DNA from: an uncultured Actinomycetes bacterium
GTDB lineage: Bacteria; Actinomycetota; Actinomycetes; Nanopelagicales; Nanopelagicaceae
NCBI GenBank assembly: GCA_903843225.1
Contig: CAIMOX010000007.1
Location: 1-64,000, forward strand
Direction: 5' to 3'
Length of the DNA stretch: 64,000 bases
In this document: positions 48,323-53,070 of the stretch, piece by piece
Position numbering within the stretch: position 1 is the first letter of the stretch
How the letters are laid out: each line of letters begins with the position of its first letter
Translations under genes and position numbers: made by a program
Notes under the pieces: model-generated
Database searches by the model: none
What the model was told of the DNA's origin: nothing
What the model saw: only the letters and a program-made list of their open reading frames with translations

Positions 48323-49006
48323 ATGTCGGTGGAGAACTTTATTCAAGAGAGTTTCTTCGAAGATATCTTCCCTTCCGTGACCGGAACGCCTCAACCGTCG
48401 AACTTTCAGCAGCGCCAGCGTAGGCGACTTCTCTCCCCCGCTAAAACTGCACCTCACCCATCACTTCCTGACTTTCGCGTCGTACGCTCGACCCGCCGCA
48501 AGCGCGGTGTCACCGCCTTTCGTAACAATGGCATCATCGAGATTCATATCCCGGATCGCACCACGAGGCGGGATGAAGCTGCACTGATCCCCGAGATGAT
48601 CGCACTTGTCGTAGAACGCGAAGCGCGCCAACGTCGCGGTGATGACCTCCTAGAGAAGATGTCCAGTCAACTACTCTCCCAGTACCTCCCAGAATTTCAT
48701 GAGCGTCCATCCTCAATCCGCTGGCGGAGCATGCAAGGGCGTTGGGGTAGCTGCACCACAGTGGATGGCACCATCCGTGTCGCCGGCCGGTTAGCGAGCG
48801 CACCCGATTATGTGTTGAACTGCGTCATCCTCCATGAGCTCATTCACCTACGCCTGCCAGGCCACGGCCCAGAGTTTTATGAGCTCCTTGCCCGCTACCC
48901 AGATTTAGCCCGAGCGGAGGCCTTCCTCGAAGGCTTTGAATCTGGGCTGGCTAGCGCCCCAGAACCGGTTATCCCGCAGGATCTAGAGCCAGCGCCACTC
49001 CTCTAG
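48323..49006 (+). CDS. YgjP-like (DUF45/M48-type) metallopeptidase
   Basis: The zinc site HELIHLRLPGHGPEFYELL (HExxH plus downstream His) and the preceding SSIRWRSMQGRWGSCTTVDGTIRVAGRLASAP are clear marks of the YgjP/WLM-like peptidase family. About 80 N-terminal residues form the beta-rich lead. The last 25 residues are Pro/Glu-rich. The protein is cytoplasmic; substrates are unknown. The ATG follows GATAACT by about five bases, so it too may be leaderless. Its stop is followed by an array of further in-frame TAG codons. Confidence 0.85.
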   Translation: MSVENFIQESFFEDIFPSVTGTPQPSNFQQRQRRRLLSPAKTAPHPSLPDFRVVRSTRRKRGVTAFRNNGIIEIHIPDRTTRRDEAALIPEMIALVVEREARQRRGDDLLEKMSSQLLSQYLPEFHERPSSIRWRSMQGRWGSCTTVDGTIRVAGRLASAPDYVLNCVILHELIHLRLPGHGPEFYELLARYPDLARAEAFLEGFESGLASAPEPVIPQDLEPAPLL

Positions 49007-49078
49007 GCCGATGAGGCCGATTAGGCCGATTAGGCCGATTAGGCCGATTAGGCCGATTAGGCCGATTAGGCCGACTAG
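49007..49078. repeat. 9-bp tandem repeat of in-frame stop codons
   Basis: Eight units follow the peptidase stop TAG directly: GCCGATGAG, six times GCCGATTAG, then GCCGACTAG. The unit is nine bases long, so seven extra TAG codons stay in frame with the gene. Confidence 0.95.
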
Positions 49079-49121
49079 CCCACGCTCGACCCACGCTCGA
49101 CCCAGCTCGACCCACGCTCGA
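49079..49121. repeat. 11-bp tandem repeat, four copies
   Basis: CCCACGCTCGA occurs at 49079-49089, 49090-49100, a 10-base variant at 49101-49110, and 49111-49121. It directly adjoins the 9-bp array, making one compound repeat tract between the two genes. Confidence 0.88.
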
Positions 49122-49262
49122 CCCACTCAATCGTGCACACAAATAGACGCTCAAGATCCCCCACTACGCTCACACACGCGGGTACCCTCAGCATGTACGC
49201 ACGCTCAGCGCGGGAAGCACCCGGGCGAATTTATGAGTTGCTGCGGCGATAGGAGGGTCATC

Positions 49263-49421
49263 ATGGCTGAGGAATATAAGGGCGAGGCTTACTGCGTAAA
49301 GTGCAAAGAGAAGCGTTCATTCGAAGGACACGTCAAGGTCTCTGAATCTGGCCGCCGCATGGCACAGGGCATCTGCCCAGTGTGTGGCACCAAGGTCAAC
49401 CGCATTTTGGGCAAGGCTTAA
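49263..49421 (+). CDS. DUF5679 zinc-ribbon protein
   Basis: The 52-residue protein begins at ATG 49263 with AGGAGG six bases upstream. It has two CxxC knuckles (CVKC and CPVC) flanking KEKRSFEGHVKV and ends KVNRILGKA, the DUF5679 pattern. A longer open frame upstream is only the repeat tract read through. Such proteins are small zinc ribbons related to topoisomerase zinc fingers; the role is unknown. A strong terminator follows, so it is monocistronic. Confidence 0.92.
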   Translation: MAEEYKGEAYCVKCKEKRSFEGHVKVSESGRRMAQGICPVCGTKVNRILGKA

Positions 49422-49440
49422 TTCCCAAACTAGTTTTATC

Positions 49441-49488
49441 CACCCCGCCTATCTCACACTTCAATCGGTGAGATAGGCGGGGTGTTTT
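49441..49488 (+). terminator. Strong intrinsic terminator after DUF5679 gene
   Basis: CACCCCGCCTATCTCAC (49441-49457) pairs perfectly with 49468-49484 around a ten-base loop, followed by TTTT. Confidence 0.93.
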
Positions 49489-49582
49489 CATCTGAGCGCT
49501 CGATCGAATATTTTCTTCGCGCTCACCCACAATCTCTGATCGGTGCGCTCACTCGCCTTCTGCGTAGAGAACCATCTCCCCC

Positions 49583-50764
49583 GTGATAAACATTGACTCC
49601 ATTGACTCCACTGACTCTGGCTCCCCTACTTACTCCACCTACCCCAAGGTGAAGGGTGCAACCTGCGCGATTCCTCTTAACTCCTCTAACTCCGCTAACT
49701 TGCCTGCCTCAGGTGAGTCGCTCGAGTCGGTCGAGATGAACGCTGCGGAGTTCTTCGCTGGAGATAGCCGAGGCGGGTACAACCTTCCCAGCACTCCCTA
49801 TCTCTGGTTGATGAAACGTTCGAGTGGACTGACCAGGGCCTCATCCATTGTGGCCGATGTTGCCCGCGAAAATTCTTTACCCCACGACCAGGTACGAGCT
49901 GCTCTCCTTGATCTGGCTACCTGGGGCCTGATCGAGCTCTTACCTACACCCATCTACTCAACACTTACTCACCGCGAAAATATTAATCAGCATGAGATCA
50001 ATAATCAGACGCGCTTATCCATTGAGAGATCACTTATCACCCATCGAAGCCCTGATGGCGGCGTTGCTGAATGGGCTAATCGCGCAGAACACGTCATTGC
50101 AATCATGGGAGATACTCGAATTGCCCGGAACTTACTCCCTCTACTCACCTCAAGTGGATTTACCAAAAGCTCTGTGATCGCCTTGCCGAGTGAACCTTTT
50201 CTACTTGGGGCAATGGATATCAACGGTCTCTCTGTGACTCTTGAGCATCTCGGTAAAAGCAAGGCTCTCCACCATCGCGAACTGATTCGCCACTCTCATA
50301 TCTCAGGAGCAACCCAACTCATCTCCTCGCGTAAGAGCGATCTGATAATCGCTACTACTCCGCCTGCACCTGATCAGATTCAGGAGTGGCAGAGTGAGGG
50401 GATCACTCATATTGCCGTCAGTGATCCAATCCGTGCAGAGATTGAGCTTTCATACTTCATCCAACCCGGGCTCACCCCATGCCTTCGTTGCATTGCGCTT
50501 CATCGGCGAGATGCCCTCCCACCTAATCTTTCAGCGCTCTCACTCTCATCTGGCCGCCATGAACTCCCTGTTGCAGCAGCGGCGCTCGTAGCCGCATTAC
50601 TTGCCAGCGCCGTTGAGAACTTTTACCAGGCGAATCGACCGGTAAGCACGACCTCGCAGCTGATTAACTTGCTTGAACCAGCTCTTGCCCCAGGGGTTCG
50701 CAGGTGGAACTTCCATCCAGAGTGCGGGTGCGTGGACGTCCGACGCCGCGCTTTGCAGCGATAA
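49583..50764 (+). CDS. ThiF/cyclodehydratase-like protein
   Basis: The C-terminal two thirds resemble the E1-like (ThiF/HesA) fold used in TOMM cyclodehydratases and their orphan actinobacterial relatives: HVIAIMGDTRIARNLLPLL, a middle Rossmann part, PGLTPCLRCIALHRRDALP, and the C-terminal RRWNFHPECGC with zinc-type cysteines. The Gly-rich nucleotide loop is weak (MGDTRI), so it may not adenylate. The first 50 residues are low-complexity (DSIDSTDSG), coded by a repeated ATTGACTCC; the true start may be ATG 49736. The gene ends 101 bases inside the convergent whiB7. Confidence 0.65.
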   Translation: MINIDSIDSTDSGSPTYSTYPKVKGATCAIPLNSSNSANLPASGESLESVEMNAAEFFAGDSRGGYNLPSTPYLWLMKRSSGLTRASSIVADVARENSLPHDQVRAALLDLATWGLIELLPTPIYSTLTHRENINQHEINNQTRLSIERSLITHRSPDGGVAEWANRAEHVIAIMGDTRIARNLLPLLTSSGFTKSSVIALPSEPFLLGAMDINGLSVTLEHLGKSKALHHRELIRHSHISGATQLISSRKSDLIIATTPPAPDQIQEWQSEGITHIAVSDPIRAEIELSYFIQPGLTPCLRCIALHRRDALPPNLSALSLSSGRHELPVAAAALVAALLASAVENFYQANRPVSTTSQLINLLEPALAPGVRRWNFHPECGCVDVRRRALQR

Positions 50765-51050
50765 CGAGACCGCCCTCAAAGAGCTCGCCACCCCACACAC
50801 CACATGGTTCACTCCGAGAGAGTGCGCCTTCAAGACAAGCGGTGACCATCGGGCAACCGCGGCAAAGTTGCTTTGCGCTAGTTATCTGATCTACATCCTC
50901 TGAGAAGAAGAGCTCTGGATCAGCGGTGTGGCAGGGTAGTGAAAACTCATCCCCCGAACCCGTTACGGAAGTAACTGCGTCAAGTCCGATCAACGCATCA
51001 CTGCCTTCTGCCCATCCTGGGAGTAATAAATCGCTCAAGAGAACGCTCAT
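50664..51050 (-). CDS. whiB7: WhiB7-type transcription factor with AT-hook
   Basis: WhiB7 activates intrinsic antibiotic-resistance genes together with the housekeeping sigma factor. Iron-sulfur cysteines are at 40, 63, 66 and 72 (LPCHTADP, LCRGCPMVTAC), then CGVWGG, and the WhiB7-specific AT-hook GVGRPRTRTL near residues 102-111. The gene follows uvrD2, as in M. tuberculosis, and has a long leader with an upstream ORF and terminator. I use ATG 51050 (MSVLLSD); a frame open to 51260 crosses the terminator and is not real. The 3' 101 bases overlap the ThiF-like gene. Confidence 0.9.
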   Translation of the reverse strand: MSVLLSDLLLPGWAEGSDALIGLDAVTSVTGSGDEFSLPCHTADPELFFSEDVDQITSAKQLCRGCPMVTACLEGALSRSEPCGVWGGELFEGGLVIAAKRGVGRPRTRTLDGSSTCEPLGQELVQAS

Positions 51051-51116
51051 CGTTCTCACTTCCTCTCGTGTAATTTTCTGGTTTTTCTTCTGTGATTGTT
51101 TTATGGGGTAGAAATG

Positions 51117-51153
51117 AAAAAGGACCGCATATCCTGTTACGGATTTGCGGCCC
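51117..51153 (-). terminator. Attenuator terminator in the whiB7 leader
   Basis: On the minus strand GGGCCGCAAATCC (51141-51153) pairs with 51122-51134 around a six-base loop; the stem has one A-A mismatch and one G-U pair and is followed by five T. It lies between the upstream ORF and whiB7, so it must be bypassed for whiB7 to be made. Confidence 0.85.
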
Positions 51154-51164
51154 CTGGGGGTTTG

Positions 51165-51182
51165 GTATCGGTTATCCGATAC
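51165..51182 (-). promoter_or_regulatory. Hairpin on the stop codon of the whiB7 upstream ORF
   Basis: GTATCGG and CCGATAC form a perfect 7-bp stem with loop ATAA; the uORF stop TAA (51172-51174) is inside the loop. A ribosome stalled on the last codons would melt it and alter pairing of the following terminator arm. Confidence 0.65.
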
Positions 51183-51372
51183 TCCTCCAGGTCCCGCTCG
51201 CACCGTTGCGCTGTGTATTCGCATATGCATACGTATGTGAGAATGCATAGGCGGTGGCATCTGCGAAGGTAAGTGCGGGTGTTGTTGATGTAGGCCAAGC
51301 AGCGGCCATCACAAAGCGTTGCTCGTGTGAGCCTGCTCCTGTGAGTGCCTGATTGATCATGATCTTCTCCAC
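51172..51372 (-). CDS. whiB7 upstream ORF (leader peptide)
   Basis: From GTG 51372 a frame of 66 codons runs to a TAA at 51172. The product starts with KIMINQALTGAGSHEQRF and ends NGASGTWRSIG, with a run rich in Ala, Thr and Tyr between. A TACTCT hexamer six bases before the GTG suggests leaderless translation; ATG 51360 with GGAG seven bases upstream is the alternative. In mycobacteria and Streptomyces, antibiotic-slowed ribosomes on such an ORF allow read-through into whiB7. Confidence 0.7.
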   Translation of the reverse strand: MEKIMINQALTGAGSHEQRFVMAAAWPTSTTPALTFADATAYAFSHTYAYANTQRNGASGTWRSIG

Positions 51373-51378
51373 GCATTT

Positions 51379-51420
51379 AGAGTAAAGCAGTGCGGTGAGG
51401 CGGCGCAACTTAATTTAAAT
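51379..51420 (-). promoter_or_regulatory. WhiB7-type autoregulated promoter
   Basis: On the minus strand an 11-base AT-only box (51410-51420) ends one base before TTGCGC (51403-51408), then 18 bases and TACTCT (51379-51384). An AT-rich box just upstream of -35 is the known WhiB7 target, so whiB7 probably activates itself. The box overlaps the uvrD2 stop codon. Confidence 0.7.
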
Positions 51421-53070
51421 GGCCGCCCCAAGCGCAGCTAGAAATGGACTCGGCTCACCCGATGTGCTGATATGAACCTGGCGCTTTGCGCGAGTGAGTC
51501 CCACGTAGAAGAGGCGACGCTCCTCTTCAAGAAGTGAGGGTGAAGGCTGCGAGCCATCTTTTACAGTCAGCGGCAGGGTGCCATCGTTGACCCCCACCAA
51601 AAATACGTGATCCCACTCAAGCCCCTTGGCAGCGTGGAGCGAGGAGAGCACTACTCCGGGCAAGGCCGGAGGGTTGTTCTGCTGCGCACGATCTTCAAGT
51701 TCTCGAAGGTAGGCACGAAGTGATGGCGCCCCTTCGGCAAACATTGTTCTGGCCAAGGACATCAGCGCTCTGATGTAATCGGCCTCTCCAAATGGTCGGA
51801 GCACTGACTCTAAGTCGCGAAGCCAACTCTCATCATTGGGCAATACTGAAGCGCTACGAATGACCTTCATTGCATCTCTCACATCTACACGATCGAAGAA
51901 TCTTTCGGCGCTCTTTAATTGTGATTCGATCTTTCGCGTCGCAAGTTCGCGCTCAAAGATATCTAACTGCTGATTAGTGCGCGCCAAGATCGCAACGCTA
52001 CTCTCGGTGAGGTCTAACTCGGTGATGCGCTTACCCACATGAGCCGCCTCGCCGGCAGCTGTCGTAAAGGTCTGGAGTTCAAAGTTTGCACCATGTGTAT
52101 TCATTGATACGAGCTGCTGATCTCCGTGCGTTGCGCTCTCGCTCAAGACACGATTGGCCATCTGAATAATCTCTGGGGTCGATCGATAACCACGAGTAAG
52201 TTTGACCACCTTCGCATCTGGGAAGCGGCCAGTAAATCCTAAGAGGAAGGCGGAGGTCGCTCCGGCAAATGAGTAGATGGTCTGTGCTGCATCGCCAACC
52301 ACACAGATATCGCTTCGGTTGCCTAGCCAGAGATTGAGTAATCGCTGTTGCAGCGGTGAGACATCTTGGTACTCATCGACAGTGAAGTAACGGTATTGAT
52401 CCCGAATGCGTTCACAGACCGCCCGATCTTCTTCGAGCATTCCAACAGTCAGTAGTAAGACATCTTCGAAATCAATGACACGCTCTTGGCGCTTGAGCGT
52501 CTCGTAGGCGTCGTAGACCTTTGCAATCTCAGCGAAGTTCTCACGATCAGATTTTCCATTAGGAATTCGAAGTGATCGTGACGCGGCGATCGCAGATTCG
52601 GCATATTGATCGGGAGCAAACTCTCCCGCCTTCGCCCATTCGATCTCACTAGAAATTTCGCGAAGTGTTGTTGCACCTGGTGCTAAGAAGGTATCGCTTC
52701 GACCCATCGCCTCCGACATAAAGCCGGCTTTGCTCGTAAGTAGCTTTGGAAAGGCTCCACCAAATGAGTACGGCCAGAAATACATCAACTGTTTGAGCGC
52801 CGCTGCGTGAAATGTACGAGCGGCTGCGTTGGGGACTCCTAAAGCCCGTAACCGGGCGCGCATCTCGCCAGCAGCGCGCGCAGTGAAGGTCAGGGCAAGT
52901 GTTTTACTCTGATCTGTTACTCCTGCAGCAACCGCATAGGCGATGCGATGTGTAATGACTCGAGTTTTACCGGTACCCGCACCCGCAATTACGCAGACTG
53001 GTCCGCGGATTGCAGTGACCGCCTCCTGTTGCTGCGGATCAAGCCCTTCTAAGATCTCCTCCAGCTCCAT
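51415..53070 (-). CDS. uvrD2: UvrD2-like DNA helicase without HRDC domain
   Basis: Superfamily 1 helicase with motif I GAGTGKTRVI, motif II VDEYQDVSPLQQRLL, motif III AQTIYSFAGA, motif IV TRGYRSTPEI and motif VI FYVGLTRAKRQVH. Mycobacterial UvrD2 has about 700 residues and ends in HRDC and tetracysteine domains; this 551-residue protein stops right after motif VI, so those are missing. Position between nudC and whiB7 supports orthology. It starts six bases after nudC ends. Confidence 0.88.
   Translation of the reverse strand: MELEEILEGLDPQQQEAVTAIRGPVCVIAGAGTGKTRVITHRIAYAVAAGVTDQSKTLALTFTARAAGEMRARLRALGVPNAAARTFHAAALKQLMYFWPYSFGGAFPKLLTSKAGFMSEAMGRSDTFLAPGATTLREISSEIEWAKAGEFAPDQYAESAIAASRSLRIPNGKSDRENFAEIAKVYDAYETLKRQERVIDFEDVLLLTVGMLEEDRAVCERIRDQYRYFTVDEYQDVSPLQQRLLNLWLGNRSDICVVGDAAQTIYSFAGATSAFLLGFTGRFPDAKVVKLTRGYRSTPEIIQMANRVLSESATHGDQQLVSMNTHGANFELQTFTTAAGEAAHVGKRITELDLTESSVAILARTNQQLDIFERELATRKIESQLKSAERFFDRVDVRDAMKVIRSASVLPNDESWLRDLESVLRPFGEADYIRALMSLARTMFAEGAPSLRAYLRELEDRAQQNNPPALPGVVLSSLHAAKGLEWDHVFLVGVNDGTLPLTVKDGSQPSPSLLEEERRLFYVGLTRAKRQVHISTSGEPSPFLAALGAAI

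Follow-up and report, generated by a model that had tools for sequence, protein, structure and literature searches.

A whiB7 leader from the Nanopelagicaceae as a predicted ribosome-mediated transcription attenuator with a probably leaderless upstream open reading frame

Introduction

Does a translating ribosome decide whether RNA polymerase reaches whiB7 in the Nanopelagicaceae, and does that ribosome load directly on the 5' end of the transcript? We asked this of a stretch of 64,000 nucleotides, here called the window (positions 1 to 64,000 of contig CAIMOX010000007.1, assembly GCA_903843225.1, from an uncultured Actinomycetes bacterium of this family), in which a whiB7 gene on the minus strand is preceded by a leader with an upstream open reading frame (uORF) and a terminator. 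In the wblC/whiB7 attenuator, according to reviews (PMC11550727 and PMC9618640) that cite Lee, Lee and Roe 2022 (doi 10.1111/mmi.14834), full translation of the uORF leads to termination, while early stalling leads to read-through. From sequence and comparison, we consider it highly probable that the window leader is a ribosome-mediated transcription attenuator of the wblC/whiB7 type with a leaderless uORF. The literature searched contains no paper linking Nanopelagicales with whiB7, in agreement with a first-pass annotation of the window, which had supposed that the system was likely not mapped in this lineage.

The window belongs to a 1.35-Mb genome that is 99.9% complete. For comparison, 97 distinct whiB7 upstream regions were drawn from 60 relative genomes and 80 named contigs; the named relatives are mostly freshwater metagenome-assembled genomes, several of them labelled Candidatus Nanopelagicaceae, Planktophila or Nanopelagicales. 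The family promoter was scored in 90 of the 97 regions (six are ended by contig ends and one, L033, belongs to another family).

Results

The predicted leader extends for 322 nt from the putative transcription start (+1) to whiB7, and all of its parts lie on the minus strand. The uORF (51172 to 51372) opens with a GTG at the predicted +1 (51372 to 51370) and runs for 66 sense codons to a TAA stop (51174 to 51172); its assignment rests on the conserved frame, on the ratio of nonsynonymous to synonymous changes (pN/pS) and on the spacing between the -10 element and the GTG. The stop codon is held in the loop of a hairpin of 7 perfect bp (GTATCGG-ATAA-CCGATAC, 51165 to 51182), and at least four pairs enclose or touch the uORF stop in 90/90 leaders. 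Between the uORF and whiB7 lies an intrinsic terminator (GGGGCCGCAAATCC-GTAACA-GGATATGCGGTCC-TTTTT, 51117 to 51154, -22 kcal/mol), which shows paired changes in the alignment, is present in 96 of the 97 upstream regions and ends 67 nt before the whiB7 start. The hairpin on the stop and the GC-rich terminator with its T run, followed by whiB7, had been recognized in the first-pass annotation, and both were recovered in the same places. The leader fold has a z score of -4.6, with none of 100 shuffles as good; because of this fold and because the parts recur at fixed spacing in 90/90 leaders, the architecture is not a product of chance.

The end of the uORF is predicted to pair with the terminator in an alternative structure. 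The 5' arm of this antiterminator (GCGG-GA-CCTGG, 51187 to 51197) lies within the uORF 3' end, and the 3' arm (CCAGG-GG-CCGC, 51147 to 51157) overlaps the terminator 5' arm; folding, a scan of ribosome positions and arm swaps all point to it. The inner half, CCTGG (51191 to 51187) with CCAGG (51157 to 51153), had been proposed beforehand as a possible alternative fold. That pairing stands but is incomplete, since by itself it is compatible with the terminator; the pairing that excludes the terminator is the outer half, GCGG (51197 to 51194) with CCGC (51150 to 51147), which takes away the terminator 5' arm. The stop hairpin lies within the antiterminator and caps it, and the combined nascent fold of the window leader is predicted at -29.7 kcal/mol. 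A nascent fold joining the uORF 3' end to the terminator 5' arm is predicted in 90/90 leaders, with an average of 11.2 such pairs compared to 5.6 for leaders with a shuffled uORF end.

Cognate antiterminator arms paired at -23.2 kcal/mol, compared to -18.8 kcal/mol for arms swapped between leaders, a difference reached in 0 of 20,000 permutations, although this count is not a probability, since the test ignores relatedness. The terminator arms behaved alike (cognate, -24.2 kcal/mol; swapped, -18.4 kcal/mol). In the columns of the outer helix, lineages use different standard pairs, e.g., G-C, C-G, A-T and T-A: GAGGCC-A-CTTGG occurs with CCAAG-GGCCTC, and ATGGCC-A-CTTGG with CCAAG-GGCCA, where the window has GCGG-GA-CCTGG with CCAGG-GG-CCGC. 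The covariation search among related whiB7 leaders that the first-pass annotation had suggested was thus run, and the antiterminator arms covary. Indeed, both predicted helices, terminator and antiterminator, covary, and prediction together with covariation argues that they are mutually exclusive. We also observed that the uORF 3' end nearly copies the terminator 3' arm (GGATACGAGGCC) in leaders L069, L083 and L127, where the antiterminator is longer than that of the window.

We scanned ribosome positions along the uORF, placing the footprint edge 15 nt ahead of the P site. For RNA still lacking the terminator 3' arm, the antiterminator probability was 0.67 for a ribosome at codons 25 to 55 and 0.00 to 0.05 for one at codons 58 to 67. 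In the switch that we propose, the WhiB7-type promoter would fire at or next to the GTG, and a ribosome would load on the RNA 5' end. On reaching the uORF stop, the ribosome would melt the stop hairpin, cover the uORF 3' end and block the antiterminator; the terminator would then fold, and transcription would halt ahead of whiB7. A translation inhibitor or amino acid shortage could stall the ribosome early, no later than about codon 55 of the 66, in which case GCGG-GA-CCUGG would pair with the emerging CCAGG-GG-CCGC, sequestering the terminator 5' arm and allowing the polymerase to enter whiB7, whose product may in turn act on the AT-box promoter of its own gene. We infer the transcription start at the GTG, which way the switch works, the signals that induce it and the autoregulation, here taken to be autoactivation.

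A uORF was found in 95 of the 97 distinct whiB7 upstream regions, and its frame is conserved among relatives. Summed over 18 pairs of relatives and computed with the last 13 codons excluded, pN/pS was 0.45 in the uORF frame, compared to values of 1.23 and 1.10 for the two alternative frames, which indicates that the uORF is subject to protein-level selection; together with the conserved frame, this ratio predicts a translated uORF, as in the wblC/whiB7 attenuator. The peptides of related leaders contain 20% Ala, 12% Ser and 12% Thr, and relative to UvrD2, they are enriched in His, Tyr and Trp and depleted of Glu, Asp, Leu and Gln; the uORF has no Cys. Such a composition may be suited to the general sensing of charged tRNA, with codons possibly chosen to register amino acids in short supply. 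Conservation of the uORF frame, hairpins and terminator in relatives lends broad support to the attenuation reading first put forward in the annotation.

Upstream of the uORF lies a promoter with the features of wblC/whiB7 promoters, i.e., an AT-rich box set 3 nt upstream of a TKG-type -35 element, a TANNNT -10 element and a spacer of 16 to 19 nt. Read on the minus strand, its order is AAATT-AAG-TTGCGC-N18-TACTCT. The AT box (ATTTAAATTAA, 51410 to 51420), which by sequence is a predicted WhiB7-type activator site, is separated by one G from the -35 element TTGCGC (51403 to 51408); 18 nt further on is the -10 element TACTCT (51379 to 51384). The AAATT inside the box is an exact AAAWY match 3 nt upstream of the -35 element, agreeing in motif and position with the WblC box of Streptomyces coelicolor, GAAAWY located 3 nt before -35 (PMC7157823). 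TTGC-N20-TANNNT is present with identical spacing in 90/90 untruncated whiB7 leaders; relatives keep an AT box of six bases 3 nt upstream of TTGC (TTAATT in 62/90), and the -10 element is TACCCT or TACTCT in 72/90. The layout described in the first-pass annotation, from the AT box through TTGCGC, 18 bp, TACTCT and a GTG 6 nt on to 66 codons, was therefore borne out. It had also placed the leader peptide on top of the stop codon of the upstream gene, a uvrD2-like helicase gene (51415 to 53070, minus strand, 551 amino acids, Pfam UvrD-helicase) immediately upstream of the leader. The overlap belongs instead to the AT box: the uvrD2 TAA (51417 to 51415) falls within it, and the uORF opens about 40 nt further downstream. 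Of the 87 related loci that show an upstream gene, 86 have uvrD2 there, immediately adjacent and in the same orientation.

Six nucleotides (AAATGC) separate the -10 element from the GTG. This spacing is exact, with the GTG in frame, in the window and in 5/5 close relatives, among which the distance from the GTG to the next ATG differs (9 or 12 nt). In a test covering 370 kb of the window's genome (the window and L176 to L195), 50 candidate start codons had a TANNNT ending exactly 6 nt upstream of them, compared to about 4 per other offset, an excess of about 12-fold, and an internal control for this offset gave no such peak. A -10 element 6 to 7 nt upstream of a start codon (ATG or GTG) is the sequence mark of a leaderless transcript, and these counts suggest that such transcripts are common in this lineage; leaderless initiation at ATG and GTG is efficient in mycobacteria (PMC4633059). 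Judging from the spacing, the uORF is probably leaderless, with transcription starting at or beside the GTG, which strengthens the annotation's suggestion of a leaderless leader peptide. Among the 90 leaders, the uORF start is 6 to 7 nt after the -10 element in 16 and 9 nt after it in five; in the remainder it is mostly much further away. On a quick tree of UvrD2 and WhiB7, the leaderless state requires five changes, and three of these are forced by well-supported branches.

The gene downstream of this leader (50664 to 51050, minus strand) encodes a protein of 128 amino acids with a WhiB domain and its cysteine cluster (Pfam PF02467, E = 5.6e-16), the GVWGG turn and a C-terminal GRPR AT-hook, features of WhiB7/WblC proteins. 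Its best match in the Protein Data Bank is Mycobacterium tuberculosis WhiB7 (7kif, E = 8.7e-20), in an alignment that spans both GVWGGE and GRPR. A covariance model of the leader (R1), built from 35 leaders and run on 60 genomes, gave exactly one match per genome in 44 of the 60. Wherever a match and whiB7 share one stretch, the match lies upstream of the gene at a distance of no more than a few hundred bases; three matches (G008, G022 and G029) are at contig ends, on sequence that does not include whiB7. Eight of the matched genomes are class-level genomes outside the training set, and there, too, R1 matches only at whiB7, which supports shared descent of the leaders. With one match per genome at whiB7, including in these untrained genomes, the predicted RNA switch appears ancient within the class and linked to whiB7. 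Rfam was searched with 49000 to 53000, and no model matched at an E value of 1 or below.

We also looked for other WhiB7 targets. Strict, loose and Streptomyces-type promoter patterns gave 0, 3 and 5 matches, respectively, in the window's own genome, compared to 0, 1 and 3 for reversed controls, and none was convincing besides whiB7. Each of 36 relatives has at most one WhiB7-type promoter site, apart from one extra in G012, and hflX is without a recognizable WhiB7 box. Target boxes may be weaker in this lineage, or WhiB7 may control few genes or have shed the greater part of its regulon.

Convergent with whiB7 is an open reading frame of 393 amino acids (49583 to 50764, plus strand) with no significant Pfam or NCBIfam match; it may encode a ThiF-like or cyclodehydratase-like protein. 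Two abutting tandem arrays (49004 to 49126), with a 9-bp unit TAGGCCGAT repeated 8.3 times and an 11-bp unit CCCACGCTCGA repeated 4.5 times, are located between a YgjP-like gene and a DUF5679 gene.

Discussion

The readings that compete with a leaderless attenuator differ in how much of it they would change. The mildest keeps the switch and moves the uORF start to an in-frame ATG (51360), 12 nt after the GTG, leaving a leader of about 12 nt. The ATG is preceded 6 nt upstream by GGAG, a potential Shine-Dalgarno sequence, so that the start is not certain from the window sequence alone, and in most relatives the first possible uORF start is at least 15 nt after the -10 element, in many cases with a Shine-Dalgarno sequence. 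However, among the five close relatives, L007, L008 and L011 have just 3 nt between GGAG and the ATG, and L009 has GGAA in its place. The GTG keeps its frame and its 6-nt distance from the -10 element in 6/6, whether the ATG lies 9 or 12 nt away from it; we regard an internal start as unlikely, if worth bearing in mind. It is distinctly less probable that the uORF product is an arrest peptide sensing a particular drug, as in ermCL. The uORF is conserved as protein, and a C-terminal GTW(S/R)xIG is recurrent among relatives, but the codons for these residues make up the CCTGG arm and the stop hairpin, and RNA pairing thus accounts for their recurrence. Upstream of them, uORFs vary widely between lineages, and what is conserved is a composition (rich in Ala, Ser, Thr, His and Tyr and poor in Glu, Asp and Leu) rather than a single motif.

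Two further explanations dispense with the ribosome-controlled switch. The terminator could be a constitutive, partial one, serving uvrD2 or the leader RNA, with the uORF incidental; uvrD2 does end just upstream, and equilibrium folding prefers the terminator at all ribosome positions. Such a terminator would leave unexplained the protein-level selection on the uORF, the hairpin on its stop in 90/90 leaders, the covarying antiterminator arms and the dedicated promoter in all untruncated leaders, and we consider this explanation very improbable. We give even less credence to the view that a promoter beyond the terminator drives most whiB7 transcription, with the leader yielding a separate small RNA or peptide. 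The 67-nt stretch between the terminator and whiB7 would accommodate one, and the first-pass annotation had named a transcription start in this position as an outcome that would speak against attenuation. Yet this stretch has no TANNNT in the window, on which ground the candidate was rejected, and only 10 of 96 leaders have one; no sigma-70-like site was found in 50950 to 51550 with a strict consensus, which is blind to the whiB7 promoter as well.

Several observations weigh against the attenuator with a leaderless uORF. The ATG with its GGAG 12 nt past the GTG could be the real uORF start. As to the antiterminator, RNAalifold on a MAFFT alignment recovers the terminator only, owing to a one-base displacement of the antiterminator 3' arm from lineage to lineage; registers for the column counts were chosen leader by leader, and the swap test carries the limit noted above. 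No WhiB7 regulon beyond whiB7 itself is recognizable. Finally, at equilibrium, the full-length leader prefers the terminator at every ribosome position, even without a ribosome (0.84). Since the terminator is favored in the completed leader, the proposed switch needs an antiterminator that is trapped during transcription, which is usual for attenuators.

On balance, the attenuator seems real and well conserved, in a lineage where it seems to be unmapped, and its leaderless form is probable. The mechanism is that known for wblC/whiB7; the lineage, the leaderless form with its repeated turnover and a covariation-backed antiterminator are new. The best-known actinobacterial antibiotic-response attenuator would thereby extend to small-genome freshwater plankton, its antiterminator would be a candidate entry as an RNA family, and leaders in which the sensing frame gained or lost a 5' leader offer natural replicates. 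A more speculative idea, toward which we are rather skeptical, is that the leaderless uORF of this streamlined lineage acts as an elongation-only sensor, reporting stalled elongation and not initiation trouble, that leadered and leaderless forms switched repeatedly around the same RNA switch and that WhiB7 may control little besides its own gene.

Among known systems, the S. coelicolor wblC/whiB7 attenuator (Lee, Lee and Roe 2022, doi 10.1111/mmi.14834), as represented in reviews, shares with the window a WhiB7 gene, an AT-box promoter, a translated uORF, a terminator and an antiterminator formed on stalling. The locus described here differs in lineage and in a uORF that starts at the predicted 5' end, and its antiterminator helix is explicit and backed by covariation; this comparison is with the reviews' account of that system. 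The mycobacterial whiB7 leader (Dinan et al. 2014, PMC4128351) likewise combines a long 5' leader, a uORF and a Rho-independent terminator. Its transcript begins about 350 nt upstream of whiB7, close to the 322 nt predicted here, but in our case no leader is predicted before the uORF. A leaderless short sensing frame is found in the mycobacterial polycysteine uORF attenuators (Canestrari et al. 2020, doi 10.1111/mmi.14498, as cited in PMC13236596); by that account, they act by translation attenuation through Cys codons, whereas the window leader would attenuate transcription by a terminator and has no Cys. In the M. tuberculosis ilvB1 attenuator (PMC13236596), a ribosome at the stop masks the antiterminator and the terminator forms, as proposed here, although its regulatory codons (Leu-Val-Val-Ile) serve an amino acid pathway, and its gene and RNA are unrelated to the whiB7 leader.
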